DNA of 64,000 bases from Helicobacteraceae bacterium (GTDB taxonomy: Bacteria; Campylobacterota; Campylobacteria; Campylobacterales; Sulfurimonadaceae), in the NCBI GenBank assembly GCA_027023805.1, contig JALVUF010000046.1, positions 1 to 64,000 on the forward strand, in the 5' to 3' direction. The first letter of the stretch is position 1; each line of letters starts with the position of its first letter. The notes beneath the pieces are model-generated. The model was not told the origin of the DNA. It saw only the letters and a list, made by a program, of their open reading frames with translations, and made no database searches. Made by a program: the position numbers and the translations under genes. This document shows, piece by piece, positions 2,749 through 31,478 of the stretch.

Positions 2749-2780
2749 TTAACACAAATGTAACACTCTTAGGCTACAAT
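2749..2780 (+). promoter_or_regulatory. putative promoter with 11-bp-period direct repeat TAACAC-N5-TAACAC and -10 TACAAT
   Basis: TTAACACAAATGTAACA at 2749-2765; repeats start at 2750 and 2761; TACAAT at 2775-2780; 17-bp box identical to 14177-14193 with the same spacing to the -10. Confidence 0.6.
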
Positions 2781-2799
2781 TTGCTAAAAAAGAAGCTAG

Positions 2800-3594
2800 A
2801 TGAACGGTATAGAACTAACTGCAATTATAAGCTTTGCTCTTTTGGGCTCTATAGGTCACTGTATAGGAATGTGCGGTGGATTTATTATGACATACACTAT
2901 GGCAAAAGTAAAACCCGGCGATTCAAAAATCACACAATCTGTTTACCATTTTTTATATAATTTTGGTAGAGTAACATCTTACACGCTACTTGGCGCAGTA
3001 TTTGGTTTTTTTGGATCTTTATGGCAGATAAACCCGCTGACGAGGGCTGTCATGTTTTTCTTTGCGGGTATTTTGATGATTATCATGGGTTTATCCTTTG
3101 CCGGTAAACTAAAGTTTTTAAACTCCATTGAGATACCGCTTAGTAAATATAACTGGTTTAAGCGTATCTTTACATATCAAATGAATTCCGGCAATAAAAG
3201 CAGTTTTTTTATACTAGGCATGTTAAACGGACTGTTTCCATGCGGACTGGTTTATACAATGCTAGTTAGTGCCATTACTACAGGTTCCGCACTTTACGGC
3301 GCTCTTGTTATGTTTATCTTTGGTATATTTACAATTCCAACTCTTTTTTCATTTGCTTTTGCCATCAGTATCTTTTCAACAAGTAAATTCCGCTCTTTTA
3401 TGATACAGCTTGCAGCACTTACAATTATCATATTTGGAACATGGACAGTGTATAAAGCTTATCTTCAGTTTGACTATTGGTACTATACGAAATCATCTGT
3501 TATAAAAGCCAATGAGGCAGTTATGAAATGCGGCGCAGGCAAATGCGGCGCAGGCAAATGTGGCGTAGGAAAGTGCGGTGCACAGCAGAAATAA
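2800..3594 (+). CDS. TauE/SafE (UreH-domain) family membrane protein with C-terminal Cys-rich tail
   Basis: 'GHCIGMCGGFIMTYT...FNGLFPCGLVYTML' family signature; multiple TM segments; C-terminus KCGAGKCGAGKCGVGKCGA. Confidence 0.85.
   Translation: MNGIELTAIISFALLGSIGHCIGMCGGFIMTYTMAKVKPGDSKITQSVYHFLYNFGRVTSYTLLGAVFGFFGSLWQINPLTRAVMFFFAGILMIIMGLSFAGKLKFLNSIEIPLSKYNWFKRIFTYQMNSGNKSSFFILGMLNGLFPCGLVYTMLVSAITTGSALYGALVMFIFGIFTIPTLFSFAFAISIFSTSKFRSFMIQLAALTIIIFGTWTVYKAYLQFDYWYYTKSSVIKANEAVMKCGAGKCGAGKCGVGKCGAQQK
3526..3582 (+). repeat. in-frame 15-nt coding repeat encoding KCGxG
   Basis: AAATGCGGCGCAGGC x2, then AAATGTGGCGTAGGA and AAGTGCGGTGCA. Confidence 0.9.
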
Positions 3595-3826
3595 CCAATT
3601 ATCATATTATTTAACTTGTTACCAAATTCCCCATGTAGCTTAAATCTTTATTAAATATTCATCTTATGAAATAACTATTAATAAATAAACAAACTTTCAG
3701 ATTTGTTTGGTTATTATAGCGATGTTTATAGTTTGCAGTTTATAGCCGGCAAGGAACTCGATAAAAAAGAGCCTATCGGTTATAAAAAAGCAGATTGTTT
3801 CATTTTGATTTTTTAGGAGGCTATAT

Positions 3827-5323
3827 ATGGAGAATCGTCCATTAGAGTATGATTATACTGTCGCAAAAATGTTTATGTGGACTACTATAATCACTGGAAT
3901 AGTTGGTATGTCAGTAGGCGTATTGATCGCTTTTGAGCTCGCTTATCCGGGCGTCAATACGATTTTTGGTCATACAATCGCACAATATACGGCATTTGGT
4001 CGTTTGCGTCCGGTTCATACCAATGCAGTTATTTACGGATTTACGGTTAGTGGAGTTTTTGCCACTTGGTATTATGTCGGGCAAAGGGTACTAAAAGTAT
4101 CTATGGCTGAGTCAAAATTTTTGATGTTTATAGGAAAGCTTCAGTTTTGGCTTTATCTAGTCGTAGTAGTTTTTGGTATCGCATCGCTCATAATGGGATG
4201 GACAACATCAAGAGAGTATGCGGAAATGCAGTGGCCTGTGGTTTTGGGCGTTACTGTAGTATGGGTACTTTGGGGTATTAGTATATTTGGTCTTATCGGT
4301 ATTCGCCGTGAGAAATCGCTATATATTTCAATTTGGTATTATATAGCTACATTTTTGGGTATTGCTATGCTTTATCTGTTTAACAATGCTGAAATTCCTA
4401 CAATTTTAGCTACAGATCCGGCCGGTCAGAGCATGATAGGGAGCTGGATGCAGTCTATCTCAATGTATTCAGGTACAAACAGCGCAATGGTTCAGTGGTG
4501 GTTTGGGCATAATGCCGTCGCATTTGCTTTTACTGTTCCAATTATCGCCATGATATATTATTTTCTTCCAAAAGAATCGGGTCAGGCAGTTTATTCATAT
4601 AAGCTTTCTTTACTTTCATTTTGGGGACTAATGTTTGTTTATTTATGGGCAGGAGGACACCATTTATTGTTTTCAACCGTACCTGACTGGGTACAGACAA
4701 TGGGATCGGTATTTTCTGTTGTATTGATTCTCCCATCGTGGGGTAGTGCTATAAATATGTTGCTTACGATGAAAGGTGAATGGAAACAGGTTGCAGATTC
4801 ACCACTTATTAAGTTTATGATTTTAGCATCTACATTTTATATGTTCTCAACCCTTGAAGGTCCAATTTTGGCTATCAAATCAGTAAATGCGATAGCGCAC
4901 TTTACAAACTGGATCCCGGGACACGTTCACGATGGTACTCTTGGATGGGTTGCGTTTATGATTATGGCGGGACTTTACCATATGGCACCGCGTTTATTTA
5001 AACGTGAACTATATTCAAAATCAATCATGGCAGCTCAGTTTTGGATTCAAACTCTGGGCGTTGTTTTATACTTTACATCTATGTGGATTGCCGGTATCAC
5101 GCAAGGTTTGATGTGGCGTGCTCAAGACCAGTACGGAAACTTGGCTTATTCGTTTGTTGACGTTGTAAGAGACCTTCACCCATACTATACTATTCGCGGT
5201 GTCGGCGGAGCATTGTATTTGATAGGTTTTCTTATGTTTTCATACAATATAGTTAAAACAATTACAACTGGACGCCGTGTTGAAGAGAGCGAATTACAAA
5301 ACGCTTCTCCTATGGCAGCATAA
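3827..5323 (+). CDS. ccoN: cytochrome c oxidase cbb3-type subunit I
   Basis: 498 aa; 'QWWFGHNAVAFAFTVPIIAMIYYFLPKESG', 'GGHHLLFSTVPDW', 'HFTNWIPGHVHDGTLGWVAF'. Confidence 0.98.
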   Translation: MENRPLEYDYTVAKMFMWTTIITGIVGMSVGVLIAFELAYPGVNTIFGHTIAQYTAFGRLRPVHTNAVIYGFTVSGVFATWYYVGQRVLKVSMAESKFLMFIGKLQFWLYLVVVVFGIASLIMGWTTSREYAEMQWPVVLGVTVVWVLWGISIFGLIGIRREKSLYISIWYYIATFLGIAMLYLFNNAEIPTILATDPAGQSMIGSWMQSISMYSGTNSAMVQWWFGHNAVAFAFTVPIIAMIYYFLPKESGQAVYSYKLSLLSFWGLMFVYLWAGGHHLLFSTVPDWVQTMGSVFSVVLILPSWGSAINMLLTMKGEWKQVADSPLIKFMILASTFYMFSTLEGPILAIKSVNAIAHFTNWIPGHVHDGTLGWVAFMIMAGLYHMAPRLFKRELYSKSIMAAQFWIQTLGVVLYFTSMWIAGITQGLMWRAQDQYGNLAYSFVDVVRDLHPYYTIRGVGGALYLIGFLMFSYNIVKTITTGRRVEESELQNASPMAA

Positions 5324-5340
5324 AAGAGGGAGGAGATAAT

Positions 5341-6033
5341 ATGTTTCATTGGTTAGAAAAACATCCGTTTTTATTTGCGGTAGGAGTATTTGTAGTTATT
5401 GCCTTTGCGGGTTTGGTTGAAGTTTTACCAAACTTTGCACAAGCGTCACAACCGATTATAGGCACCAAACCTTATACTATTTTAGAGTATGCGGGTCGTC
5501 AGGTTTATATACATCAAGATTGTAATGCATGTCATTCACAGCTTATTCGTCCGTTTAAGTCATCAACAGAGCGTTACGGTCATTACTCATTAAGTGGTGA
5601 ATATGCTTATGACAGACCATTTTTATGGGGTTCTGAGCGTACCGGTCCTGATCTTCACAGAGTTGCCGATTACCGTACGATTGATTGGAATGAAAAACAT
5701 ATGATAAATCCTGAGGCTCTTGTTCCGGGATCGATTATGCCAAAATATCCATGGCTATATAAAGATCCGACAGATATAAATACAGCATATGCGACACAAG
5801 TAGCAGCAGCTGAATTTTTCCATGTACCGTACAATGTCCCGATTCCACTTAAAAACGGTAAGACAACGATTATTCCTTTGGCTCCAAATCTAGCCGCAGC
5901 ACATGCTATGGCTTTAAAAGAAGCAAAAGCTATTGTTGATCAGGGTTCTGATAAAACATTACAAGAAGATGTAGCACATGGCAAGATACCACAAATAGTT
6001 GCATTGCTTGCATATTTAAATCAGTTAAAATAG
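5341..6033 (+). CDS. ccoO: cytochrome c oxidase cbb3-type subunit II (monoheme)
   Basis: 'YIHQDCNACHSQLIRPFKSSTERYGHYSLSGEYAYDRPFLWGSERTGPDLHR'. Confidence 0.98.
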   Translation: MFHWLEKHPFLFAVGVFVVIAFAGLVEVLPNFAQASQPIIGTKPYTILEYAGRQVYIHQDCNACHSQLIRPFKSSTERYGHYSLSGEYAYDRPFLWGSERTGPDLHRVADYRTIDWNEKHMINPEALVPGSIMPKYPWLYKDPTDINTAYATQVAAAEFFHVPYNVPIPLKNGKTTIIPLAPNLAAAHAMALKEAKAIVDQGSDKTLQEDVAHGKIPQIVALLAYLNQLK

Positions 6034-6045
6034 GGAAAACAGGTC

Positions 6046-6258
6046 ATGTGGCTAACATTTTTTTCAAAACCTGATGTTCAATATACTTTTTATGCGGGTA
6101 TGGTAGTTTTTTTAGTTGTATTTATATCTGCATATACATACTATCTTTATAGCAGGCAAAAATCCGGACATAAGGATTTTGAGAAATATCATGATCTAGT
6201 TACAAAGGATAATATCTTTGATATGCCGCTTGAAGATACGGTGAGACATAAAAAGTAG
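6046..6258 (+). CDS. ccoQ: CcoQ-like small cbb3 oxidase subunit (copy 1)
   Basis: 70 aa, one TM helix, between ccoO and ccoP; 'YYLYSRQKSGHKDFEKYHDL'. Confidence 0.75.
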   Translation: MWLTFFSKPDVQYTFYAGMVVFLVVFISAYTYYLYSRQKSGHKDFEKYHDLVTKDNIFDMPLEDTVRHKK

Positions 6259-6383
6259 ATCATGGCTAAGAGATGCTTGTTAAAGATTTGAAAACTTTGT
6301 TTTAGGAAGATAGATGTTTGGTCAAAGACCGGTTTTTTTAAAAAAGATTTAAACTTGGGCTCTAAAATAAAAGGATCTAAAGC

Positions 6384-6608
6384 ATGTTGAAGAATTTGGC
6401 AAATATTCAAGCCTATACATATTTTGGGATTGTTGTTTTTTTGACTATTTTTTTATATGTGTATATATATTATCTATATAGCAGGCAAAAATCCGGACAT
6501 AAGGATTTTGAAAAATATGGCAATATGGCATTAAAAGATGATATACATGATACTCCTGTTGAGGGTATATCTAAGGATAAAAATAAAAAAGATGGAGGTG
6601 TAAAATGA
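6384..6608 (+). CDS. ccoQ: CcoQ-like small cbb3 oxidase subunit (copy 2)
   Basis: 74 aa, one TM helix; 'YYLYSRQKSGHKDFEKYGNM'; shares 35 identical nt with copy 1. Confidence 0.75.
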   Translation: MLKNLANIQAYTYFGIVVFLTIFLYVYIYYLYSRQKSGHKDFEKYGNMALKDDIHDTPVEGISKDKNKKDGGVK

Positions 6609-7531
6609 AAATTAATAAGCTCTACGTTTCAGCTATTGTGATGATCCTATTAATGTTAGGATTTACATATATAGCTGTAGGTATGGACTCTAAAAGCGCA
6701 GGCGGAGATATCGTAAACGATTTGGCGATACTTGGCGCTATCGTTATATTTAGTGCGACTATTATCGTAGCTATCAAATATGTTCGCCAGATGCAAACAG
6801 ACAAGGCAACAGGTAAATTAGCTGAAGATAATTGGGATGGAATAGGTGAATATGAAAACGAGCTCCCGATAGGCTGGTCGATAATTTTTCTAGGCACAAT
6901 AGTGTGGGCATTTTGGTACATGCTTTTTGGTTATCCCGTTAATGCATATTCTCAAATTGGTGAATACAATAAGGATGTTAAGATTTCAAATGCAAAATTT
7001 GAGAAAAAATATACTAACTTAACAAAGACACAACTAACAAATATGGGTGAGTCAATCTTTATTGTTGACTGTGCTGCTTGTCACGGACTAGCAGCTGATG
7101 GACTAAACGGAACAGCGGCTAACCTTAATAAGCGTATTCAAGTTAAAAGTGTTGAGTATGTAATAGAGCATGGCTCAGATAATCACTTATCAGCTCATGA
7201 GCTGGCTACCGGTATGCCTGTAATGTCTGCAGGACTTACAAAAAAGCAGATACATACAGTAGCTGAGTACGTATCAAATGGATTTGATAAATCAAATAAA
7301 GCAGGTGCAAAGATATTTGCTTCAACATGTGCAAGTTGTCATGGTGCAGATGGTTACGGGACACCTTATGTAGCTCCTAATATCCATACGTTTACACCTA
7401 CGCTTGTTGCGCACATTGTAGGGCATGGAAAACATGGTGGTATTGGAGTTATGCCGGCATTTAAAAATTTAAATCCGGTACAGCTTAAAGCAGTAGCTAC
7501 ATATGTTACAGCAATAAGTAAAGGAGAATAA
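6605..7531 (+). CDS. ccoP: cytochrome c oxidase cbb3-type subunit III (diheme)
   Basis: 'DNWDGIGEYENELPIGW', two CxxCH motifs (CAACH, CASCH). Confidence 0.97.
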   Translation: MKINKLYVSAIVMILLMLGFTYIAVGMDSKSAGGDIVNDLAILGAIVIFSATIIVAIKYVRQMQTDKATGKLAEDNWDGIGEYENELPIGWSIIFLGTIVWAFWYMLFGYPVNAYSQIGEYNKDVKISNAKFEKKYTNLTKTQLTNMGESIFIVDCAACHGLAADGLNGTAANLNKRIQVKSVEYVIEHGSDNHLSAHELATGMPVMSAGLTKKQIHTVAEYVSNGFDKSNKAGAKIFASTCASCHGADGYGTPYVAPNIHTFTPTLVAHIVGHGKHGGIGVMPAFKNLNPVQLKAVATYVTAISKGE

Positions 7532-7533
7532 TT

Positions 7534-7770
7534 ATGGCTGATGAAAATTTTAAAGGTTCCGGACTTTTTGCGCTAGATGGATTAAGCGGTTATTTTATAG
7601 CCGTGGCAATTTTATTGTCACTGCTTATAGGACTTAACATCTGGGGATGGCATGTTCAAAGAACAAACCAAGTTAAATATTTTAAGATAGTAAACGCTAA
7701 GCAGATTCCTGAGTTTGGAAGTCCGGTAATTGCTGCTAAGCATCGTGTTTATGTTGAAACTGTTAAATAA
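7534..7770 (+). CDS. DUF4006-like small membrane protein of the cbb3 locus
   Basis: 78 aa with one TM helix, immediately downstream of ccoP. Confidence 0.65.
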   Translation: MADENFKGSGLFALDGLSGYFIAVAILLSLLIGLNIWGWHVQRTNQVKYFKIVNAKQIPEFGSPVIAAKHRVYVETVK

Positions 7771-7779
7771 GGATATATT

Positions 7780-7869
7780 ATGATAAGAATAATAACATTT
7801 GGATTAGTCATATTAGCAATAGTGACTTTGTGGTCAGTTTTTACTCCTAACCATCTTTTTATAACTTAG
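7780..7869 (+). CDS. 29-aa single-TM microprotein MIRIITFGLVILAIVTLWSVFTPNHLFIT
   Basis: ATG at 7780 with AAGGA six nt upstream, TAG at 7867-7869; fits between flanking genes; below the length cutoff of the supplied ORF track. Confidence 0.6.
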   Translation: MIRIITFGLVILAIVTLWSVFTPNHLFIT

Positions 7870-7883
7870 TTCGGAGTTAAATA

Positions 7884-8588
7884 TTGAAAAGTTTTAGTCG
7901 GGGATTTTTTGTCCTCGTATTGTTGATATATAGTGTTACAACTGCTTATGCAGGGAAATATTTATACAAAGATCAGGTTTTCAATAAACCTGAATTTACC
8001 AAATATGTGAACAAACTTGGTTCAGAACTATACAATAAAACAGGCATATCTTTAAGATTGGTTATACTAAAAACCTTAGAAAATAATCAAACAATACATC
8101 AATATGAGAGCAATCTTATTAAGACTTTTAAGCATCCGACTATTTTACTGACTTTTTCTGCTTTAAATAAAAAGGTTGATATCATAGCCAGACCGAAATC
8201 TTTATATAAATATTTTAATAAACAGCAGGTTTTATCTCCCGCTTCATCATTTTTAAATTCTTTGTATATTGCGATTGTTTATAGTAAAAATCTTAAACAG
8301 TTTAAAGCAACGGCACTAAATGACGGTGGTACTATTATCCCTCTTTTAGCACAAAAAACAAAGGGTAAAGAAGAAACCAACAACAAATATAGTGCCGCTT
8401 TGTTTAACGGGTATGCAGATATTGCTTCACAAATTGCAAAAGCAAAACATATTACACTAAAAGCTAATGTGGGAAATAGCACACATGACATGATGGATTT
8501 ACTAAGGATTATCTTTTACGGCGTATTATTATATGCTGGTTTTAGGTATTTAAAAATTAGATCGAATCAAAAAAAGAGGAAAAAATGA
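7884..8588 (+). CDS. secreted/membrane-anchored protein, TPM-domain-like
   Basis: TTG start with GGAG upstream, signal peptide, C-terminal TM; in the cbb3 accessory operon. Confidence 0.5.
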   Translation: MKSFSRGFFVLVLLIYSVTTAYAGKYLYKDQVFNKPEFTKYVNKLGSELYNKTGISLRLVILKTLENNQTIHQYESNLIKTFKHPTILLTFSALNKKVDIIARPKSLYKYFNKQQVLSPASSFLNSLYIAIVYSKNLKQFKATALNDGGTIIPLLAQKTKGKEETNNKYSAALFNGYADIASQIAKAKHITLKANVGNSTHDMMDLLRIIFYGVLLYAGFRYLKIRSNQKKRKK

Positions 8589-9100
8589 TTAAAATTACTG
8601 ATCATAACAGATGGCCATTAATTATAACAGGAGCTCATGTGGGGCTTATCGGATTGGTTATTTGGACGATAGTGGCTGTTGGAGACAGCCATGTGGTGCT
8701 TGACCGTGCCGATATGATGAATTATCAAAAAGCAGATAGAGATGCAAATCTTATCATAAGAGATAAGATAGCTTTTGATAAGCGGTATAATATAGAGTAT
8801 CTATCAAGCCGCCTGCATCCTTCTCATGCTGTTATCGTTTATAAGGTTGTCACAAAATCAGGTAAACCTGTAGATAATGCAAAGTTTAAGATTATAGCAA
8901 CGCGTCCAATGACTGATAGGGACAACGTAACGATTACAAAACCTGTAAGTATAGATAACGGCATATATACCTTTATAACTAAACTTGACGGAAAAGGCAG
9001 ATGGAATATTATGGCTGACGTAAGGGTTCGTCGTTATGAGAGATACTATAACATAAAGACAGATACTATGGATGATAATTATGTCACAAGGACTTTTTAG
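8585..9100 (+). CDS. FixH family protein (cbb3 accessory)
   Basis: N-terminal TM 'RWPLIITGAHVGLIGLVIWTIVAV' then FixH-like periplasmic domain; overlaps the preceding gene. Confidence 0.65.
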   Translation: MIKITDHNRWPLIITGAHVGLIGLVIWTIVAVGDSHVVLDRADMMNYQKADRDANLIIRDKIAFDKRYNIEYLSSRLHPSHAVIVYKVVTKSGKPVDNAKFKIIATRPMTDRDNVTITKPVSIDNGIYTFITKLDGKGRWNIMADVRVRRYERYYNIKTDTMDDNYVTRTF

Positions 9101-9108
9101 ATACTTTT

Positions 9109-11463
9109 ATGACTAAAAATCCTATAGAGGTTTTACCTAGTTCGCGTTCAATTAGGGCTAGGATTATAGATTTTGAGAAACTACATACCTCTTTTTTACC
9201 AGATTTTATAACTATGTCGGAATTTTTAAACCGTATTTGCGTCGTAGAAGATTTTATTGTCCCAGATGCTGATACTCGTGTACTTTTTTTACTAGAGGCA
9301 TCAAATTTTAGCAACTTTAAAATTTTAAACATAGAGCGAAATTTTTTTACCTTTACTCAAAATAGTAGTTATATTTTTAATTTTTTTACTGAATTAGCAG
9401 GTGAAAAAGTAGATATTTCTTCACTTGAATTGGCTGATTCTTATGCAGAATATGAACAACATCTGGCTATTTTAAATACGCTTTATCATAGATATAAAAT
9501 GCTTTGCATGAATAATCGTATCTTGGATCCTATTTTTTTACCTTCGTTATATAAGCTAAATAAAGATCAACTTTTTTCGATGGGACATATTAAAATTTTT
9601 GTAGAGGGCTATTTGACAAATTTTGAATTTGACCTAATACATGAATGTAGCCAATACGCAGAGATTACAATCGTATTGAGTGTTACACGCTTTAGTAACA
9701 AAATGATATCAAAATTTAAAAAACTCGGATTTGATCTAATAAAAGGGTATGAGTACGAATTAGATATTGGTAAAAAACGGGTATTGTCAACCAAACTATT
9801 AAAAAACTATAGTAATATAATATGCTATAGTTTTGAGAGCAGACTTGTTCAAGTTGCATTTGTGAAGAAGATGATTTTTGATTATATCAATATTGGGATA
9901 AAGCCACAAGAGATAGTTGTTATTGTACCAGATGAATCATTTGCAAAATATCTAAAACTTTATGATAAAGAGAATAATTTTAATTTTGCTATGGGGTATC
10001 CGTTTTGTGAGTCGGATATTTATAAATATCTTGATGCTTCATGTCAGTATATAGAAATGCCGACAGAACAAAATAGAGCACGGCTTTTACGAGAAGGAGC
10101 AGATTTTTATGAAGCAGTTTCCGAGATTTACTATAAAAATATAAAAGATATAGATTTCAAAGGTCTTGTTGAGTTAGCTATAGTATCCACTAAAAGCAGC
10201 TATGAAAAGAAAATTGTGCAAGAGGAGTTGCATTCATTTTTAAAACTCCAAGATGCTTATAGCAGTTACAACTTAAAAACAGTTTTGCATATGTTTATGC
10301 AAAGACTCTCTAAGCGCACTATTGATGATATAGGCGGCGGTCAAATTACCGTCATGGGACTGCTTGAGAGCAGACACATCAGCTTCAAAGGAGTGATTGT
10401 AGTCGATTTTAATGATGCCAATGTGCCAAGACGAATCGACAAAGATATGTATCTAAGCTCACAACTGCGTGCTAGCGCGTCACTTCCTACAAGCAAAGAT
10501 AGAGAGGATCTGCAACGACACTATTATACTCTTTTGTTTAGCCGCGCTTTATATGTGAGCATATCTTGTGATTGCGACAAGGCACCGTCAAGATTTTTAG
10601 CACAATTAAATATCCCTGTAAAAAAAGTAGAAGATACTGCTGCGTATATGAATATCTTATATAAAACTCTTACGCCATCTACCGTGTTAAAAGAAGATGA
10701 GATTAAACTGCAATATGATTTTACAAAAAATACTATCTCAGCTTCATCGTTAAAAATATTGCTTGAATGTAAGCGAAGATACTATTACAAATATATCCTA
10801 AATATAAAAAAACATGAAATGGCGTCTGATTATATCAAGGAGCATGAGATAGGAAGTGACTTGCATGAGATCTTAAGAAAGATTTACAGCAAGCATAACA
10901 GATTTGAGAGTAAAGCCAAATTAAAAGCTCTGTTTGCAAAAGAGATAGATGCAATATACTGCTCAACAAACTTAAAGAAGTATCAGCTCGAATTATGGAA
11001 AAGAAAGATAGATGCTTTTGCGCAAAACGAAATAGAGCGTTTTGGTGACGGTTTTATTGTCACAAGCTGTGAACAACAATTTACATATAAATATAAAAAT
11101 ATTAAGTTAAGCGGACAGATTGACAGGATAGACAGCAAAAGCGGCGGATTGTACGTGCTGGATTATAAAAGCGGAAAATATCCATCTTATACAGCTAAAA
11201 CTATCACAAAAGCGACTGATTTTCAACTTGAATTTTATTATCTGCTTGCCTCTAGTTTGGGCGCAAATATATTAGGATGCGGGTATTATGATTTAAGCAA
11301 AGGCATTGTTGTTGATGAGGTTTTGCTCTTTAGTAAGCTTGAACTTTTAAAAAAGCATTTAGATGAGATACGGCAGACAAAAGTGATCGATTTTTGTAAA
11401 ACGGATGATACATCAAAATGCCAATATTGTGAATATATTTATATGTGCGGTAGAGCGTCATAA
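9109..11463 (+). CDS. AddB-like PD-(D/E)XK nuclease
   Basis: C-terminal nuclease motifs 'SGQIDRIDSKSGGLYVLDYKSG', Cys cluster 'CQYCEYIYMCGRAS'; next to AddA-like helicase. Confidence 0.85.
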   Translation: MTKNPIEVLPSSRSIRARIIDFEKLHTSFLPDFITMSEFLNRICVVEDFIVPDADTRVLFLLEASNFSNFKILNIERNFFTFTQNSSYIFNFFTELAGEKVDISSLELADSYAEYEQHLAILNTLYHRYKMLCMNNRILDPIFLPSLYKLNKDQLFSMGHIKIFVEGYLTNFEFDLIHECSQYAEITIVLSVTRFSNKMISKFKKLGFDLIKGYEYELDIGKKRVLSTKLLKNYSNIICYSFESRLVQVAFVKKMIFDYINIGIKPQEIVVIVPDESFAKYLKLYDKENNFNFAMGYPFCESDIYKYLDASCQYIEMPTEQNRARLLREGADFYEAVSEIYYKNIKDIDFKGLVELAIVSTKSSYEKKIVQEELHSFLKLQDAYSSYNLKTVLHMFMQRLSKRTIDDIGGGQITVMGLLESRHISFKGVIVVDFNDANVPRRIDKDMYLSSQLRASASLPTSKDREDLQRHYYTLLFSRALYVSISCDCDKAPSRFLAQLNIPVKKVEDTAAYMNILYKTLTPSTVLKEDEIKLQYDFTKNTISASSLKILLECKRRYYYKYILNIKKHEMASDYIKEHEIGSDLHEILRKIYSKHNRFESKAKLKALFAKEIDAIYCSTNLKKYQLELWKRKIDAFAQNEIERFGDGFIVTSCEQQFTYKYKNIKLSGQIDRIDSKSGGLYVLDYKSGKYPSYTAKTITKATDFQLEFYYLLASSLGANILGCGYYDLSKGIVVDEVLLFSKLELLKKHLDEIRQTKVIDFCKTDDTSKCQYCEYIYMCGRAS

Positions 11464-14168: not shown

Positions 14169-14176
14169 AGATGTCC

Positions 14177-14208
14177 TTAACACAAATGTAACATTTTTTT
14201 CCTAAAAT
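14177..14208 (+). promoter_or_regulatory. putative promoter with 11-bp-period direct repeat TAACAC-N5-TAACAT and -10 TAAAAT
   Basis: TTAACACAAATGTAACA at 14177-14193, repeats start at 14178 and 14189; TAAAAT at 14203-14208. Confidence 0.6.
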
Positions 14209-14235
14209 GACGGCAATACTAATTAAAGGATATAA

Positions 14236-16173
14236 ATGAAAACGATTTTGCTCGCTTTATCAGCCACTGCGCCGCTAGCGCATAGTATTACATTAAACGA
14301 CATACATGTAACCTCGTCATACATAAAACCGACAAAACCGGTAGTCTCATCCGGTTTAGCATCAACTCTTTTACAAACTCATCCTTCTATCTCTATGATA
14401 AGGCGTGCCGGTACATCTAACAATATTATATTAAGAGGTATGGATAATGACAATATCAATGTAATAGTAAATGGTACAAAAACATACGGCGCATGTCCAA
14501 ATCGTATGGATCCGCCAATCTCACATGTTGATATAAATGACATTAAAAGTATCAAAATTATAGAAGGTCCATATGATGTACAAAACCTCAACACTCTAAG
14601 CGGCGCAGTTAAGATTGGGTTAAAACAGCCAAAAAAAGGACTCCATGGCAGGGTTTATACAAACTTTGGCTCATTTGGGTACAAAAATGCAGGTCTTGGA
14701 GTTAGCGGCGGAGATAAAATCATAAAGATTTTAATAAGCGGCGCCATCGCTACAAGTGACCAATATAAAGACGGCAGAGGAGATACTCTGGCCCAGCAAA
14801 CAAAAAACAATGCATCACCAGCGCATCAGTACAACCAGGCTAATTTTAATAAGAAGGCTTATTTAAAGAAAAATCTAGCAACAAAGATCTTTTTAAATTT
14901 GACGGATAATCAAAAATTAAAATTTGGCTACACTGCCGATAGAAATAATGATATTTTATATCCATCAACTGCTATGGATGCAATTTTTGATAATACAGAT
15001 CTTTATAATCTTCAATACGATATATTAAATATAGGAAAATTTTCTAAAAAATTAACACTTAGATATTATCAGTCTGATGTAGATCATTTAATGTCAAACA
15101 GATATAGAAATTACGGCACAAAGTTAAAAGATAATCATTTAAAATCACAAACACAAGGTCTTAAATTACAAAATAGATTTAATGTAAAAGGCTATAAAGT
15201 AACAGTGGGGGCTATTGGCAGTAAGCGTTATTGGAGCGGTGCTTTGTTTGTAAACAACCGATTTAAAATAGAAGATATTCCAGATGTGGATACTTACAGC
15301 AGTGGGGCATATATCAAGATAGGCAAGCGCATCAACCACTTTTCATATACGGTAGGCTCGAATTTCAGTTTTTCCAATATAGAGTCTCCATCTTATCAAA
15401 CTAAATATTACAGCGCATTAAATGGATATATCCTCACACATTACAAGCTAGACGCACACAATAAATTGATGTTTGGTGTAGGTAAATCTTCTCGCTTGCC
15501 CGATGCAAAAGAGCTTTATTTTAAATTACCAGGCAATATGGCGGGTAATGCAAATCTAAAACAGGTATCAAATTATGAAACAGATATAGGATTAAGCAGC
15601 AGTTATAACAGTTTTTTGATAAAAACAAAAGCGTTTTATTCAAAAATCAAAAATTATATACTTTATGATGCGCAAATCAATCAAAACAACTATCAAAATA
15701 TAGATGCGTCAATTTATGGTTTTTCTGCACATGGAACTTACTTTATAACAAGCCATGCATCACTGCAAGGCGGACTCGCTTATGGGCGGGGTGTAAAAGA
15801 TACATTAGCTACAAATCAACATAGCAAAAACCTTCCAAATATCGCGCCCCTTAAAGGAGATATATCTTTAAAATACAATTATCGACACAACTCATATATT
15901 CAGGCAAAAGTTATTGCCAGCAATGAATGGAGCAAGTATGACAGTGACGACGGTGAGCAAAAAATAGCCGGCTGGTCGATACTTGATCTAAAAGTCTCAC
16001 ATGGGTTTGGTAAACATTTGCTCTTTATCGCTGGAGTAAACAACGTGTTTAATACAAATTACGCTATTAGTAATACCTATAAAGCGCTATCGCTGCTAAG
16101 TGGTGGTAGCGGAGTTATGCTGTTAAATGAGCCGGGTAGATATATTTATGCTAATTTGACATTAAGATACTAG
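14236..16173 (+). CDS. TonB-dependent receptor, OprC/NosA-like copper receptor
   Basis: Signal peptide, plug domain, 'TYGACPNRMDPPISHVDINDIKSIKIIEGPYDVQN' resembling OprC/NosA; beta-barrel C-terminus. Confidence 0.85.
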   Translation: MKTILLALSATAPLAHSITLNDIHVTSSYIKPTKPVVSSGLASTLLQTHPSISMIRRAGTSNNIILRGMDNDNINVIVNGTKTYGACPNRMDPPISHVDINDIKSIKIIEGPYDVQNLNTLSGAVKIGLKQPKKGLHGRVYTNFGSFGYKNAGLGVSGGDKIIKILISGAIATSDQYKDGRGDTLAQQTKNNASPAHQYNQANFNKKAYLKKNLATKIFLNLTDNQKLKFGYTADRNNDILYPSTAMDAIFDNTDLYNLQYDILNIGKFSKKLTLRYYQSDVDHLMSNRYRNYGTKLKDNHLKSQTQGLKLQNRFNVKGYKVTVGAIGSKRYWSGALFVNNRFKIEDIPDVDTYSSGAYIKIGKRINHFSYTVGSNFSFSNIESPSYQTKYYSALNGYILTHYKLDAHNKLMFGVGKSSRLPDAKELYFKLPGNMAGNANLKQVSNYETDIGLSSSYNSFLIKTKAFYSKIKNYILYDAQINQNNYQNIDASIYGFSAHGTYFITSHASLQGGLAYGRGVKDTLATNQHSKNLPNIAPLKGDISLKYNYRHNSYIQAKVIASNEWSKYDSDDGEQKIAGWSILDLKVSHGFGKHLLFIAGVNNVFNTNYAISNTYKALSLLSGGSGVMLLNEPGRYIYANLTLRY

Positions 16174-16238
16174 ACATTGTTACTTATCGTTACTCTATAA
16201 ATGCTATAATATTATAATATAGACAAGAGAGGGGAGCG

Positions 16239-17369: not shown

Positions 17370-17370
17370 A

Positions 17371-17383
17371 GGCGCATAGCGCC
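17371..17383. terminator. GC hairpin between convergent genes, possible bidirectional terminator
   Basis: GGCGC-ATA-GCGCC between cfa (+) and the 17404 ORF (-); T-run weak. Confidence 0.3.
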
Positions 17384-17403
17384 CCTTAAGAGTTATCTAT
17401 ATT

Positions 17404-18297: not shown

Positions 18298-18334
18298 GTA
18301 TTTCCTTTTTTGTATATTATATACTAATATTTGT

Positions 18335-19576: not shown

Positions 19577-19677
19577 AGTAATAAAAACCCCTTAAAAAAT
19601 TTTAAAATTATAACAAAGCTTGACTAACACAAAGGTTTATCTGCTATAATCTTTAGAAAAAAATAGGTGATATACTG

Positions 19678-21803: not shown

Positions 21804-21816
21804 ATCACACTTTTGT

Positions 21817-22932
21817 TTAAAGCCCTAAAGTAAAAGTTGTTCCCTCTTTTATTTTAGAGTTCACATCTATCTTGATATTTTCTTCATCACATATCTTTTT
21901 AACAATATTAAGACCCACGCCAAAACCGCCGGCAAGCTCTGTTGCTCTTTCATATAGCTCAAATATCTTTTTTATTTTATCTTTAGAGATGCCTATGCCC
22001 TCATCTTTAATGATAAAGATGCAATCATTGAGTTTTATGTAGATATGATGGTTGGGTGTTGAGTACTTGATGGCGTTTGAGAGAAGGTTGGAGACAAGAA
22101 GTCTGGCTTTGTCTTCATCCATTAGTTTGTTACAGTCTTGAAGCTGGGTAACAATCTCTATGCTTTTTGCATGGCAGAGTTGTTCATAAAATTTGATAAC
22201 GTCTTGTATTATGACTTTGAGATTTATCATCCTTTTTGGATTTTGGTTTATATTGAAGTTTAAATATGCCAATGATTTATATATAACATACAGCTGTTTG
22301 GTGCTGATAGAGATATTTGTAAGTATCTTTTCATCATATATTTTTTTTTGTAAAGCATGTTTGGAACTCATCTCAAGAGCAGTTATAGGAGTATTTAACT
22401 CATGTGAGATATCTTGAATAAATTGTTCTATCTGGTTTACTTTTTGATGAATAGGGCGCATAAACAGCCGTGCCAGTATCCACGATACAAACGCAATCGC
22501 TAAAAAAAACAGAAGTGTTATAAGCGTTATCTCTTTTTGCAGTTGCTTGATTTTTTTGTTGTAATTTATCGTTTTTATGATTACATATTGTATGTTTAAA
22601 TGATCCTGCGGTGATGGAGAGATGAGAGTTTTATATCCATCTTTATCAAAGTATAAGCGTTTAAATACTTTATGCTTTGATGCCGGTATCAAAGCATAAT
22701 CATACCCCTGTTCTAATCTTGGCAGCTTTAATGTTTGATGTTTCATCTCTGCATTGATAATTCTTCCGCCTATCTCATCTGCATAATGCTGCATTTTATA
22801 ATAAATAGTATTGTTTAATTCGTTTTTCTGAGCCTCGTAATACCAAAATCCAAGAAGTATGATAAATAAAAATGAAGAGCCGATATAAAGCGACAGGAAC
22901 ATATAAAAAGATCTTTTCTCTAAGCTATTCAA
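21817..22932 (-). CDS. sensor histidine kinase
   Basis: HisKA 'DISHELNTPITALEMSSKHAL', HATPase motifs; likely TTG start at 22930-22932 overlapping the regulator stop (TTGAATAG), shorter than the ORF-track extension. Confidence 0.9.
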   Translation of the reverse strand: MNSLEKRSFYMFLSLYIGSSFLFIILLGFWYYEAQKNELNNTIYYKMQHYADEIGGRIINAEMKHQTLKLPRLEQGYDYALIPASKHKVFKRLYFDKDGYKTLISPSPQDHLNIQYVIIKTINYNKKIKQLQKEITLITLLFFLAIAFVSWILARLFMRPIHQKVNQIEQFIQDISHELNTPITALEMSSKHALQKKIYDEKILTNISISTKQLYVIYKSLAYLNFNINQNPKRMINLKVIIQDVIKFYEQLCHAKSIEIVTQLQDCNKLMDEDKARLLVSNLLSNAIKYSTPNHHIYIKLNDCIFIIKDEGIGISKDKIKKIFELYERATELAGGFGVGLNIVKKICDEENIKIDVNSKIKEGTTFTLGL

Positions 22933-23572
22933 ATTTATACCCCTGAGCTCGTATGTTAACAATATGTTCTTTTCCGATATATCGTCTGAGTTCTTTGACA
23001 AGAGTGCGTACGGCATCTGCTGTTGGCATCTCATCATAGCTCCACAGATTTTGAAGCAGCTCATCAACGCTTATAACCCGTTGTCGATTTTTGTATATAT
23101 ATCCCAGCATCTGGCTCTGCTTTTTGTTTAGAACAATCTTATTGCCCTTTATATGTAATATATTTTTAACGGTATCAAAAGCTATATCTTCATCTATCTG
23201 AACTGACTGCTCAAGTCCTTTGTATTCTTTAATATTGTTGATTCTAAGCGATAGCTCTTCAAGTTCAAAAGGCTTTTTTATAAAGTCGCTGGCTCCATTT
23301 TTAAATGCCTCTTTTAGGTATTTGATATTTTGAAATGCGGTTATAAATATGGTAGGAGTAAAATCAGCAAATTCCCGTAAACTTTTTAAAAAAGTGATAC
23401 CGCTACCATCTGGTAGATTGATATCAAATATATAAAGATCAAATCTTTGCTTATCACATAATTCACGTGCTAAATCTATAGTATAAGCATGTGATACAAT
23501 GTAGCTCTCAGATAAATAATCTTTTAAAATATCTGCCAAAACAGTGTCATCTTCAAGTAGTAAAATTTTCAT
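22925..23572 (-). CDS. OmpR/PhoB-family response regulator
   Basis: Receiver domain 'LLLEDD...YIFDINLPDGSG...FITAF...KKPF' and winged-helix C-terminus. Confidence 0.95.
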   Translation of the reverse strand: MKILLLEDDTVLADILKDYLSESYIVSHAYTIDLARELCDKQRFDLYIFDINLPDGSGITFLKSLREFADFTPTIFITAFQNIKYLKEAFKNGASDFIKKPFELEELSLRINNIKEYKGLEQSVQIDEDIAFDTVKNILHIKGNKIVLNKKQSQMLGYIYKNRQRVISVDELLQNLWSYDEMPTADAVRTLVKELRRYIGKEHIVNIRAQGYKFE

Positions 23573-23630
23573 ATCGTATTATATCAAAACATGAACCGGC
23601 CAATGGCTTGCTATGCCATGGATTTAGGGG

Positions 23631-25583
23631 TTATATACCCGCTTTTAGACCGATTATCATAGTTTGTTTGTCAGGCAGCTGATAGGTTGCGGTAATATCT
23701 TGAGTGTTGCGAACCATATATCCAAATAGATAATCCCGCCAAGTTGCCATACCTTTTAGTTTGCGTCCGGGTATGATTTCTATCTGCTTGATGATGTAGT
23801 GAACTTTACTGGTGTCTAACGTAAGGTCTTGTTCTTTGATGCTAGAGAGATCAGAGGGGATATTGACACCTTGCATAAATCCATAATGCAGTACAATTTG
23901 ATAAAATCCACTGCCTAGCTTGGTTATCTCAATACGTTTGCTCTGCTCAATAGCAGGCACCTCTTCAATTAATACGGTAGTCAGCAATATCTGCTCGTAA
24001 AGTACACCTGTATGCTGCAACAAGCTTACGAGTGTGGACGGCGTGTATATCAGTCTTCCTGTTAGAAATACACCAACTCCCGGCACTCTTAGCACCTTGT
24101 CAGCTGTTATTTTGCCTATAAAAGAGGAGATGGTGGCTGATTTATTGTTAAATTGATCTTTTAACAAGGTTGAACCGCGTCGCCAGGTTGTCATAAGCGT
24201 AAACAATAGTAGAGCAATTAGTAACGGTAGCCAGCCGCCATCTGGTATTTTCATAGCGTTAGAGGCAAGAAATGTTAAGTCAATTGTGAGAAAACATATT
24301 AAAAACAGGAGTGATTTTGGCAGACTCCAGTTCCAAAGTTTGCGTACAATTGTAAACATCAGTATCGTAGTGATTGTCATGGTGGCGTTTACGGCAATAC
24401 CGTAAGCCGCTGCTAAATTTTGCGAAGTTTGAAATATAACCACGAGTCCGATTACCGCTATCATCATCGCCCAATTTATAGCCGGCACGTAAATCTGTCC
24501 ATGTGTATCAGCGGAGGTTTGCCGCACTTGAAGCGGCGGCATCCAGTCAAGGGATATGGCTTGACGAACAAGAGAAAAAACTCCGGTAATTGCTGCTTGA
24601 GAAGCAATGATAGTAGCAAAGGTGGCCAGAATGACAAGTGGAATCAAACCCCAAGACGGCACAAGATGAAAGAACGGGCTGGCTATATTTTTAGGATCAC
24701 TTAGCAGCAGGGCTCCTTGACCAAAATAGTTAAGCACTAATGCAGGTAGGACAAAAAAGAACCAAACCAAACGGATAGGCTTTAAACTAAAGTGACCCAA
24801 ATCGGCAAACAAAGCCTCACCGCCCGTGCTAACAAGAAATACAGCATATAACACTAAAAAACCGGTTAAACCGTTATGCCTAAAGAAAACAACCCCATGC
24901 CATGGATTGATGGCTGCAAGTACGATTGGAGAGTGTATGATATTTAAGATGCCCAGTGCCGCAAGGATAAAAAACCACAACAGCATCAAAGGACCAAAGA
25001 TGATGCCAACAACTGCAGTTCCCCATCTTTGAATCGAAAACAGGGCAATTAAAATACCAATAGTGACGGGAATTACAAAGCTTGCAAATCCCGGATCTAT
25101 AATCTTCAACCCCTGTACGGCACTAAGTACAGAAATAGCAGGCGTGAGCATAGCAGCACCAAAGAGCATAGTCGCACCGGCAAGTCCTAACAAAAGAAGC
25201 GTCATGCGCCTTGGTTTTGCCTCACCCGACTTTGGACGCAATAAGCCAAGCAGTGCAAAAGTACCTCCCTCGCCGTTATTATCTGCCCGTAGTACAAATG
25301 TCATATATTTGAGTGAAATAACAAAAACCAATGTCCATAAAATAAGAGACAGCAAACCTAAAACGTTATCAGGAGTAACGGGCAGTGGATTTTTACCGAT
25401 AAAAGCTTGCTGCAAGGCATAAATAGGACTAGTTCCTATATCTCCGTAAACAATACCGAGCACAGAAAGTGCGATAAGCGTAAGAGGCTTTTTAGAGGCT
25501 TTGGCAGTCGGTTTGGCATTTTGAAATTTCAATGCTTCTTCTTGAGCTTCAATCTCTTTTTGTTCAGGAGTTAGATCAGGCAT
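23631..25583 (-). CDS. kup: Kup-type potassium transporter
   Basis: 'LIALSVLGIVYGDIGTSPIYALQQAF', 'NNGEGGTFALLGLLRP'. Confidence 0.97.
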   Translation of the reverse strand: MPDLTPEQKEIEAQEEALKFQNAKPTAKASKKPLTLIALSVLGIVYGDIGTSPIYALQQAFIGKNPLPVTPDNVLGLLSLILWTLVFVISLKYMTFVLRADNNGEGGTFALLGLLRPKSGEAKPRRMTLLLLGLAGATMLFGAAMLTPAISVLSAVQGLKIIDPGFASFVIPVTIGILIALFSIQRWGTAVVGIIFGPLMLLWFFILAALGILNIIHSPIVLAAINPWHGVVFFRHNGLTGFLVLYAVFLVSTGGEALFADLGHFSLKPIRLVWFFFVLPALVLNYFGQGALLLSDPKNIASPFFHLVPSWGLIPLVILATFATIIASQAAITGVFSLVRQAISLDWMPPLQVRQTSADTHGQIYVPAINWAMMIAVIGLVVIFQTSQNLAAAYGIAVNATMTITTILMFTIVRKLWNWSLPKSLLFLICFLTIDLTFLASNAMKIPDGGWLPLLIALLLFTLMTTWRRGSTLLKDQFNNKSATISSFIGKITADKVLRVPGVGVFLTGRLIYTPSTLVSLLQHTGVLYEQILLTTVLIEEVPAIEQSKRIEITKLGSGFYQIVLHYGFMQGVNIPSDLSSIKEQDLTLDTSKVHYIIKQIEIIPGRKLKGMATWRDYLFGYMVRNTQDITATYQLPDKQTMIIGLKAGI

Positions 25584-25667
25584 ATTTTTAGTGCTCTTTG
25601 TATAGATTTTCTAAATTTTTTTATTATATCATATTGTTTGTTTGTACAAAGTACACTTAAAACTCAC

Positions 25668-25708
25668 CTCACAAACTCCTCACAAACTATCATTATAATT
25701 ATATAAAA
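25668..25708 (+). promoter_or_regulatory. putative promoter with CTCACAAA-N3-CTCACAAA direct repeat and -10 TATAAT
   Basis: Repeats start at 25668 and 25679 (11-bp period), TATAAT at 25694-25699; 39/41 identical to 28807-28847. Confidence 0.7.
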
Positions 25709-25721
25709 AGAAGGAGTCAAC

Positions 25722-26102
25722 ATGGTTTATAAGGTAAAAGTAAGATGGCCGATAGAAGCTATCAAGGCACAGCTTGAACAAAAAGCGAAAGATGTCGGAT
25801 TTGGGATCTTGGGTTCTTATAACTTTAAAAATATGTTAAAACAAAAAGGTTTTGAGATAGATAAGGAGATAACGGTTTATGAACTTTGCAACCCTGCAGG
25901 CGCATCTTCTGCTTTAAATGCATTTACGGATATCTCTGTTTATCTGCCTTGCAGAATCTCTATTTACGAAGAAGATGGAGTGACTGTACTGGCAACCATC
26001 GGAATTGAAGATATGCTAAAGACAATTGATGCTGATACTGAGTTTAAAAAACACATGAGCGAGATATTTAAAAATCTTCGTATTTTAATGAATTCCTGGT
26101 GA
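25722..26102 (+). CDS. DUF302 domain protein
   Basis: 126 aa, 'GFGILGSYNFKNMLKQKGFEIDKEITVYELCNPAGASSAL', 'LPCRISIYEEDGVTVLATI'. Confidence 0.88.
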   Translation: MVYKVKVRWPIEAIKAQLEQKAKDVGFGILGSYNFKNMLKQKGFEIDKEITVYELCNPAGASSALNAFTDISVYLPCRISIYEEDGVTVLATIGIEDMLKTIDADTEFKKHMSEIFKNLRILMNSW

Positions 26103-26115
26103 AAAGGAGAGTGAA

Positions 26116-26322
26116 ATGTTTGGATATGATATGAGCGGATGGAGGTCTGAGATGGGATTTGGCTGGATAATTATGTTGCTGATTATAGTTATATTTATAT
26201 ATTTTTTAAATCAAAATAAAACGATATCCGATGAAAGCGCCAGAGATATTTTAGATAAAAGATATGCCAGCGGCAAGATAGATGAAGAGGAATATAAAAA
26301 GAAAAAAGAAGCATTAAAATAG
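26116..26322 (+). CDS. SHOCT-domain small membrane protein
   Basis: TM segment then 'ARDILDKRYASGKIDEEEYKKKKEALK'. Confidence 0.85.
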   Translation: MFGYDMSGWRSEMGFGWIIMLLIIVIFIYFLNQNKTISDESARDILDKRYASGKIDEEEYKKKKEALK

Positions 26323-26332
26323 GAGGTGTTTT

Positions 26333-28801
26333 ATGAGTATTAAACAAAAAAATGAACATGATTATTATACATGTCCTATGCATTTGGAAATCCATGAACA
26401 TGACGAGGGAAATTGTCCAAAATGTGGCATGACTCTGGTATTGGCATCAACTTTACAAGATAAAGAGGATATAGAATCGGGCGCAGATGAACAAGATGAG
26501 AAAAATATATATTGTATTGACGATTCTTGTGAAATAGGAGAGACTTTTTATACCTGTCCCATGCATCCTGAAATCCATCAAAATCATCCAGGAACATGTC
26601 CAAAATGCGGCATGACGCTGGAAAAAGAGGTAGAAGCCCTGCCTACAGTTACAACTAAATATACATGTGCCATGCATCCAGAAATTATTCGTGATGAACC
26701 CGGCAGTTGCCCGATTTGCGGTATGGCGTTAGAGCCTATTACTGTTGAGGCAGATGAGAAAAACGAAGAACTAACAGATATGAGCAGACGCTTTTGGATA
26801 AGCACGGCTTTATCGGTGCCGCTTTTTATAATAGCCATGATAAGTGATTTGGCTCCGCAGTATATAATGCATTTTAGCATGTTTATACACGCATTAAATC
26901 CAACATACAGCATAGGGCTCAAAGATATACAGTGGATTGAATTTATTTTGGCAACTCCCGTTGTTTTATGGGGCGGATGGCCGTTTTATGTAAAAGGTTA
27001 CAACTCTATTAAAACATGGAATCTGAATATGTTTACGCTTATATCTATGGGTGTCGGGGCTTCTTATATATACAGCTTGGTGGCTTTCTTTTTTCCACAT
27101 ATCTTTCCGCCACGGATGCTCACAAAAAGCGGTTTGGTGCATGTATATTTTGAGGCGGCATCTGTTATCACCGCGCTTGTTCTTTTGGGACAGGTGTTAG
27201 AGCTTCGTGCCAGGAGTAAAACTAACACGGCTATCAAAACTTTACTGAACCTTGCTCCAAAACAAGCACACTTAATAGATAAAGATGGTAATGAGAGAGA
27301 TGTAAATCTTGAGTTAGTGCATGTAGGAGATAAGCTTAGAATAAAACCCGGAGAAAAGATACCTGTTGACGGTGTTGTTGTGGATGGACAAAGCAATGTA
27401 GATGAATCCATGATAACAGGCGAGCCTATACTTATTACAAAAACAAAAGATGACAGCATTATAGGCGCAACGCTAAATAAAAACGGCACACTTGTTATGC
27501 AAGCTACACATGTGGGAAGCGATACGATGCTCTCACAAATCGTACAGATGGTTGCTCAGGCCCAGCGTTCGCGCGCCCCTATACAGCAATTAGCGGATAA
27601 GGTGTCTGGTTATTTTGTACCTGCTGTTGTTTTATCCGCTGTTTTGGCATTTATCGGATGGTGGTTTTATGGACCGCAGCCACATTTAGCCTACGCAACC
27701 GTAGCAGCCGTTTCAGTTTTAATCATCGCCTGTCCGTGTGCATTGGGTCTGGCAACTCCTATCTCTATCATGGTTGGAACAGGTCGCGCGGCACTGTCTG
27801 GCATCTTAATCAAAGATGCAAAAACGCTAGAGACTATGGAAAAAGTAAATACCGTAGTGATTGATAAAACCGGTACTATTACACAAGGAAAACCAAAAGT
27901 CACAACCGTGATAATAGGTGACGGTTTTGATGAAGATATGGTTGTAAAATATGGAGCCAGCCTGGAGAGAGCAAGCGAGCATCCATTGGCTGATGCGGTT
28001 ATAGAGTATGCCAAAGATAAAAATATCGCCTTAACTAATGTAGAAAATTTTCAAGCAATTTCAGGCAAAGGTATTACCGGCGAGATTGACGGTAAAAAGA
28101 TAGTTATAGGCAGTCAGGATTTTTTACAAACTTTAGGTGTTGCTATGTCGAGTATAAAAGATAAAGCCACATCACTTCAAAAAAATGCAAAAGGCGTTAT
28201 ATTTATGGCGATTGATTCTAAATTTAGCGGTATCTTTGGAGTAGAAGACCCAATAAAAGAAACATCTATCCAGGCTATAAAAGAGCTTAAAGCGGAAGGT
28301 ATCAAAGTGGTTATGCTTACAGGTGATAATCAAGATACTGCCGATGCTGTTGCAAAAAAAGTGCAAGTTGATGAAGTTTATGCCAATGTTTTACCGGATA
28401 AAAAAGCAGGCGTTATCAACAAGTTGAAACAAAATGGCGATATCGTCGCAATGGCCGGTGATGGTATCAATGATGCACCGGCATTAGCTTCTGCAGATAT
28501 CGGAATAGCTATGGGTACAGGAACTGATGTTGCTATACAAAACGCAGGCGTTACTCTTATAAAAGGCGATTTGGTGGGTATCGTAAGAGTGCTTAAACTA
28601 AGCAGGGCGACTATGAAAAATATCAGACAAAATCTATTTTTCGCTTTTGTCTATAACAGCATAGGAGTTCCGGTGGCTGCAGGTGTTTTATATCCATTTT
28701 TTGGTATAGTACTTTCACCGATTATTGCGGCAACGGCTATGAGTTTTAGTTCCGTATCTGTTATCACGAACGCTCTTCGTTTAAAAAATGTAAAAATATA
28801 G
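26333..28801 (+). CDS. copA: heavy-metal (copper) translocating P-type ATPase with three N-terminal metal-binding modules
   Basis: Three YTCxMHxEI...CPxCGM modules; 'CPCALGLATPISIMVGTGRAA', 'DKTGTITQGK', 'GDGINDAPALASADIGIAMG'. Confidence 0.95.
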   Translation: MSIKQKNEHDYYTCPMHLEIHEHDEGNCPKCGMTLVLASTLQDKEDIESGADEQDEKNIYCIDDSCEIGETFYTCPMHPEIHQNHPGTCPKCGMTLEKEVEALPTVTTKYTCAMHPEIIRDEPGSCPICGMALEPITVEADEKNEELTDMSRRFWISTALSVPLFIIAMISDLAPQYIMHFSMFIHALNPTYSIGLKDIQWIEFILATPVVLWGGWPFYVKGYNSIKTWNLNMFTLISMGVGASYIYSLVAFFFPHIFPPRMLTKSGLVHVYFEAASVITALVLLGQVLELRARSKTNTAIKTLLNLAPKQAHLIDKDGNERDVNLELVHVGDKLRIKPGEKIPVDGVVVDGQSNVDESMITGEPILITKTKDDSIIGATLNKNGTLVMQATHVGSDTMLSQIVQMVAQAQRSRAPIQQLADKVSGYFVPAVVLSAVLAFIGWWFYGPQPHLAYATVAAVSVLIIACPCALGLATPISIMVGTGRAALSGILIKDAKTLETMEKVNTVVIDKTGTITQGKPKVTTVIIGDGFDEDMVVKYGASLERASEHPLADAVIEYAKDKNIALTNVENFQAISGKGITGEIDGKKIVIGSQDFLQTLGVAMSSIKDKATSLQKNAKGVIFMAIDSKFSGIFGVEDPIKETSIQAIKELKAEGIKVVMLTGDNQDTADAVAKKVQVDEVYANVLPDKKAGVINKLKQNGDIVAMAGDGINDAPALASADIGIAMGTGTDVAIQNAGVTLIKGDLVGIVRVLKLSRATMKNIRQNLFFAFVYNSIGVPVAAGVLYPFFGIVLSPIIAATAMSFSSVSVITNALRLKNVKI

Positions 28802-28806
28802 GAGTT

Positions 28807-28847
28807 CTCACAAACTCCTCACAAATTATCATTATAATTACATAAAA
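28807..28847 (+). promoter_or_regulatory. second copy of the CTCACAAA direct-repeat promoter
   Basis: CTCACAAA at 28807 and 28818, TATAAT at 28833-28838, starting six nt after the copA stop codon. Confidence 0.7.
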
Positions 28848-29248: not shown

Positions 29249-29265
29249 AATACTTAAGGTAAAAA

Positions 29266-30459: not shown

Positions 30460-30473
30460 ACTTAGGAATAAAA

Positions 30474-31469: not shown

Positions 31470-31478
31470 GAGCACAAG

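Follow-up and report, generated by a model that had tools for sequence, protein, structure and literature searches.

Two direct-repeat box types at copper efflux and copper acquisition genes of a Helicobacteraceae bacterium, probably two regulons on one promoter layout

Four promoters in the window (the whole stretch of 64,000 nucleotides that was analysed) carry a direct repeat immediately upstream of the -10 hexamer. This pattern is real, specific and linked to copper, but it occurs as two box types at two classes of genes, and we consider it likely that the four promoters represent two copper regulons, one for efflux and one for acquisition, which would use a common promoter layout and separate regulators. 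These two regulons replace the single, local copper-homeostasis regulon that an earlier note on this DNA had proposed.

Four sites and their spacing

The four TMACA-N6-TMACA sites (M = A/C) described in the earlier note were all found at their coordinates, with half-sites beginning exactly 25 and 14 bp before the -10 hexamer (Table 1). Site 2750 reads TAACACAAATGTAACA..TACAAT and site 14178 reads TAACACAAATGTAACA..TAAAAT, while sites 25669 and 28808 both read TCACAAACTCCTCACA..TATAAT. The full pattern including the -10 was expected 0.02 times per window against the four occurrences observed, and none of 100 shuffles contained four; without the -10 requirement the repeat was a weaker signal, with 4 occurrences in the window where 1.1 were expected. 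We also carried out the genome-wide scan that the earlier note had suggested. The assembly (1.64 Mb, 99.96% complete) contained exactly four exact matches, all of them in the window and within one 26-kb stretch, and the reversed pattern gave 0 matches in the whole 1.64 Mb. Since only four matches exist, at copper-linked promoters, and the reversed control gave none, the pattern does not occur at background frequency without a bias to metal genes. Among 110 distinct orthologous sites the half-site period was almost always 11 bp, and TANNNT was present at offset 25 in 80/90 TAACA sites and 19/20 TCACA sites (99/110 together). The fixed geometry is real and specific.

Table 1. Boxes and genes of the window, with the evidence for each assignment
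Feature	Coordinates	Strand	Evidence
Acquisition-type box TAACA-N6-TAACA, -10 TACAAT at 2775-2780, before DsbD_2 gene	2749..2780	+	kept in 24/50
DsbD_2 (TauE/SafE-type) membrane protein, Cys-rich KCGxGKCG tail	2800..3594	+	Pfam PF13386, E=2.9e-50; translation
ccoN and ccoO, cbb3-type cytochrome oxidase	3827..6033	+	NCBIfam TIGR00780, TIGR00781, above cut-off
Acquisition-type box TAACA-N6-TAACA, -10 TAAAAT at 14203-14208, before OprC-like receptor	14177..14208	+	kept in 72/90
OprC-type TonB-dependent copper receptor, CxxxM (GACPNRMD) and HxM (HLM)	14236..16173	+	OprC structures; motifs
Sensor histidine kinase, partner of the CrdR-like regulator	21817..23067	-	Pfam HATPase_c, 2.1e-21; orthologs beside regulator in relatives
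OmpR-family response regulator, candidate CrdR for TCACA	22925..23572	-	Pfam Response_reg and Trans_reg_C; synteny; co-occurrence
Efflux-type box TCACA-N6-TCACA, -10 TATAAT at 25694-25699	25669..25699	+	pattern scan
DUF302 protein	25722..26102	+	Pfam PF03625, E=5.5e-14
Small membrane protein, SHOCT-like, 68 aa	26116..26322	+	ORF; SHOCT by eye, not by profile
CopA-type copper-exporting P-type ATPase	26333..28801	+	TIGR01511, 600 bits (cut-off 397)
Efflux-type box TCACA-N6-TCACA, -10 TATAAT at 28833-28838	28808..28838	+	pattern scan; kept in 24/50 orthologous promoters
crdA-crdB-czcB-czcA-like operon (YtkA, OEP, HlyD-type fusion protein, RND pump)	28868..34613	+	

Two box types and two gene classes

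The two pairs of sites in the window are different motifs: sites 2750 and 14178 share TAACACAAATGTAACA, and sites 25669 and 28808 share TCACAAACTCCTCACAAA. In the 110 distinct sites the half-sites are TAACAC or TCACAA, the consensus sequences of the two box types are tTAACACTnATGTAACACT and TCACAAACnCCTCACAAA, and repeat bases 2, 6, 7 and 10 differ systematically between them.

We then examined 190 orthologous promoters from 151 genomes of the family, which were picked by homology of the encoded protein and not by the motif. The promoters of OprC-type receptors had a TAACA box with a correctly placed -10 in 72/90 cases and those of DsbD_2 genes in 24/50, and a TCACA box in none (0/90 and 0/50). 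The YtkA/CrdA promoters showed the opposite, with TCACA in 24/50 and TAACA in 0/50, so that neither box type was found in the gene class of the other; roughly one in two DsbD_2 and YtkA genes lacks a box. Reversed-sequence controls gave hits of mixed type in 8/90 OprC, 1/50 DsbD_2 and 1/50 YtkA promoters.

A tally starting from the motif, in which the gene behind each site was read in eight genomes of the genus, showed that 22/31 TAACA-TAACA sites precede genes for TonB receptors, ExbB or DsbD_2 (one receptor assigned by eye) and 9/31 precede other genes. Thirteen of the 15 TCACA-TCACA sites stand before copper-efflux genes, namely the YtkA/RND operon, DUF302 or small Met/Cys-rich, SHOCT-like and multicopper-oxidase-like genes, several of them recognized by eye. 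The copper link of the boxed promoters holds across the family, and the pattern is not merely local, since relatives have the same boxes at the same genes at scattered loci. A stricter TAACA pattern matched 16/299 genomes of the order, every one in the family of the window, so that the box, at least in the form searched, seems to be characteristic of this family. No TCACA box was found in the viral contigs scanned.

The acquisition box

The TonB-dependent receptor behind site 14178 matched only OprC structures in the PDB (E~2e-27), and its score against NCBIfam TIGR01778 was 171 bits, below the 472 cut-off; therefore, we describe it as OprC-type rather than as the equivalog. The CxxxM and HxM copper motifs were present in 30/30 OprC orthologs checked, as CPNRM and HLM in the window receptor. 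The DsbD_2 gene lies just 5' of ccoN in the window and also adjoins ccoN in genome G031. The C-terminal Cys-rich KCGAGKCGAGKCGVGKCG repeat of its product (3520-3594) may be a tail that binds metal. TAACA boxes in relatives also precede genes for ExbB-ExbD/TonB and for NosL, a copper-delivery protein, and in two genomes (G019, G034) DsbD_2, OprC and NosL are encoded together in a cluster that carries TAACA boxes. Another TAACA-boxed cluster (L457) combines exbB-tonB with genes for a TonB receptor, a DsbD_2-like protein and a ferredoxin-like membrane protein, and L021 shows the exbB end of it.

In OprC, CxxxM and HxM are the copper ligands; the receptor NosA is repressed by copper, and how P. 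aeruginosa down-regulates oprC is entirely unknown (PMC8610252). The receptors studied here are like OprC and NosA in being TonB receptors with the CxxxM-HxM copper site, and differ in the conserved promoter box that we propose for the OprC-type genes. Neither box, TAACA or TCACA, was found described in the literature searched, and the acquisition box appears to be undescribed there. We infer that copper scarcity is its signal: the OprC-type receptor, DsbD_2 beside cbb3 and, in relatives, ExbB-ExbD-TonB and NosL would be expressed when copper is scarce, and the box would be read by an OmpR-family regulator different from that of the efflux genes.

It is rather unlikely that TAACA is instead a copper-independent box for TonB and envelope energy or for starvation (PhoB-like or other), with an indirect link to copper. 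The genes behind the box also include those of TonB receptors with no assigned substrate, those of ExbB/TonB and a few unrelated ones, the candidate regulator described below lies within a TonB-energising cluster, and the PhoP boxes of B. subtilis look similar. However, the most conserved TAACA targets are OprC receptors with the full copper site and DsbD_2 beside cbb3, to which the NosL clusters are added, and no pst gene was among the downstream genes read behind boxes.

As to the regulator of the proposed acquisition regulon, the genome itself encodes eight OmpR-family regulators for which full proteins were read. The lead candidate for reading TAACA, which we put forward tentatively and at somewhat less than an even chance, is encoded at G000:C27:10802-11464 in a pyrC-RR-HK-exbB-exbD cluster, and the choice rests on the TAACA boxes found before genes for TonB receptors, ExbB and TonB. 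This cluster was kept in 30/30 loci examined, and the regulator was found in 138/151 genomes, most of the 13 without it at the threshold being incomplete. Its recognition-helix motif GAIRVYINR is nearly invariant, while the protein is only ~50% identical. The adjacent kinase (L220/L471 and 29 relatives) is short and apparently has almost no periplasmic domain. In genome G010 this regulator and OprC are present and a TAACA site is absent, TAACA sites persist in some genomes that lack the regulator, and in g7 genomes, including G013 and G039, a regulator of a different clade lies directly before OprC with the TAACA box between them. Presence/absence profiling returned several OmpR regulators common to all genomes checked. 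A further regulator (L214), which we take to be HP1043-like, was judged unlikely to read TAACA because HP1043 is global and its half-site is different.

The efflux box and the promoter layout

The products of the operon at 28868..34613 matched YtkA (2.1e-19), OEP (1.1e-25), HlyD_D23 (7.6e-48) and ACR_tran (3.4e-209) in Pfam. Pfam and synteny together reveal a CrdRS-type arrangement, an OmpR-family regulator and a histidine kinase with crdA-crdB-czcBA. In relatives, the gene of the CrdR-like regulator lies next to, or divergent from, efflux genes with TCACA boxes (L104, L115, L124, L140, L155, L161); regulator and kinase orthologs are divergent from the crdA-like operon with a TCACA box between them in L115, L124 and L140, behind the boxed DUF302 operon in L104, and near copA in L008. 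The regulator was scored as present at a best E <= 1e-65, which gave 44/151 genomes. Among the matches listed, a TCACAWAC box occurred in at least 27/44 genomes with the regulator vs at least 4/107 without it (p=2e-14, kinship ignored); 17/44 genomes have the regulator and no such box among these matches, and three of the four genomes with a box and no regulator at the threshold are incomplete. TAACA sites, in contrast, were independent of this regulator (43/44 with vs 102/107 without, p=0.67, among the matches listed). In addition, sister genome G006 has no CrdR-like regulator, YtkA match or listed TCACA site, and keeps three TAACA sites. These two results call for two regulators or more.

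The efflux box is probably a CrdR box, and thus of a known kind, belonging to the CrdR-like two-component system at 21817-23572. In response to copper, CrdRS of H. pylori activates crdAB-czcBA (PMC9696931), and by analogy the crdA-RND operon and DUF302-SHOCT-copA would be switched on at high copper. H. pylori CrdR reportedly binds a 21-nt sequence at crdA (PMC9927306, citing Waidner 2005), a length that, as given in this secondary account, would fit two 11-bp half-sites. The apparent likeness to CrdRS (CrdR being HP1365) consists of the OmpR-family regulator with its sensor kinase and the YtkA-like/OEP/MFP/RND operon; unlike CrdRS, the regulator here is also tied to DUF302/SHOCT-copA and multicopper-oxidase-like genes.

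It is improbable that both box types (TMACA) are read by a single copper regulator that would activate one set of genes and repress the other. The common geometry, the four exact sites within 26 kb and the frequent location of OprC genes near crdA/crdRS (L115, L124, L140) agree with it; however, the box types did not cross in 190 promoters, they differ systematically at the four repeat bases mentioned above, and TAACA occurs without the CrdR-like regulator in G006 and in the family table. The single regulon of the earlier note was rejected on these grounds: the types never cross, TCACA tracks the CrdR-like regulator and TAACA does not, and G006 keeps TAACA without that regulator or TCACA.

Other box variants were observed. 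A third variant, TTACAT(T/A)AATTTTACACTT, has the same spacing and lies beside a histidine-kinase gene, before a cytochrome-c-like protein (L105, G006:C43; L116, G001:C1:1987378). TCACAATNNNTTCACAAT boxes precede small proteins of ~92-109 aa, one of which carries a CxxCH heme motif, close to kinase genes (L150, L162, L166; G018, G113, G091); this box probably belongs to another regulator rather than to CrdR. A TAACATTCAACTAACATA box is located directly 3' of a regulator-kinase pair, before an outer-membrane efflux-like protein (L182, L183; G012, G029), and a TAACACTCnGCTAACAG box precedes a Gly/Met-rich, secreted-looking protein of 85-86 aa in two genomes (L085, L092).

The earlier note had compared the repeats with the binding sites of OmpR/PhoB-family dimers, and this comparison fits: direct half-sites in tandem, offset by roughly one helical turn, occupy a fixed place over the -35, as in promoters of OmpR/PhoB-type activators. 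A dimer of this family would bind both half-sites, which follow each other at 11 bp, one helical turn, and end 9 bp before the -10, at the normal place of the -35; there the dimer would recruit RNA polymerase. The Pho box (PhoB/OmpR family) likewise has tandem half-sites with an 11-bp period over the -35. It differs from the boxes described here in half-site sequence and in strand orientation relative to the promoter. The H. pylori activator HP1043 recognizes a pair of direct TTTAAG hexamers that have a 5-bp spacer and whose centres differ by one helical turn; the pair is located at -42 to -26 of promoters lacking a -35 (PMC8345958, PMC5253667); C. jejuni promoters also have no clear -35 (PMC3656092). 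The boxes share with the HP1043/HsrA box the direct hexamers, the 11-bp period and the position in place of the -35 just 5' of the -10, but their half-sites are TAACAC or TCACAA and not TTTAAG, and they number a few per genome, whereas HP1043 is a global, essential regulator. Since they occupy the same place as HP1043 sites, we infer that activation by the predicted bound dimer is the most likely outcome, although repression may occur at some promoters. A basal promoter element, or conservation by descent alone, with no regulator, is a very improbable explanation of the repeats: the regions are orthologous and Campylobacterota promoters have periodic A/T tracts, but the box is kept among receptors ~35-45% identical while spacer bases vary, the sites listed in the 151 genomes (at least 477 TAACA and at least 169 TCACA) far exceed the reversed control, and the boxes are concentrated at particular gene classes.

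A broader possibility, which we favor somewhat less than its negation, is that TNACA-N6-TNACA-N9-TANNNT is a generic chassis of the family, in which paralogous OmpR-family regulators recode mainly base 2 and the half-site flanks. The import and export boxes would then be sister boxes with separate regulators, TCACA being assigned to copper efflux, TAACA to copper acquisition, and TTACA and TCACAAT to cytochrome-c-like genes beside their own two-component systems.

The control of copper efflux is well studied, and that of outer-membrane copper import is not. The TAACA box before OprC-type receptors, DsbD_2/cbb3, ExbBD-TonB and NosL provides a concrete regulon and a candidate regulator for testing, in a group of bacteria with an important part in sulfur oxidation and denitrification. 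The boxes are predictive genome-wide in a phylum whose promoters lack a -35, and separate switches for import and export would make the control of bacterial copper import testable.
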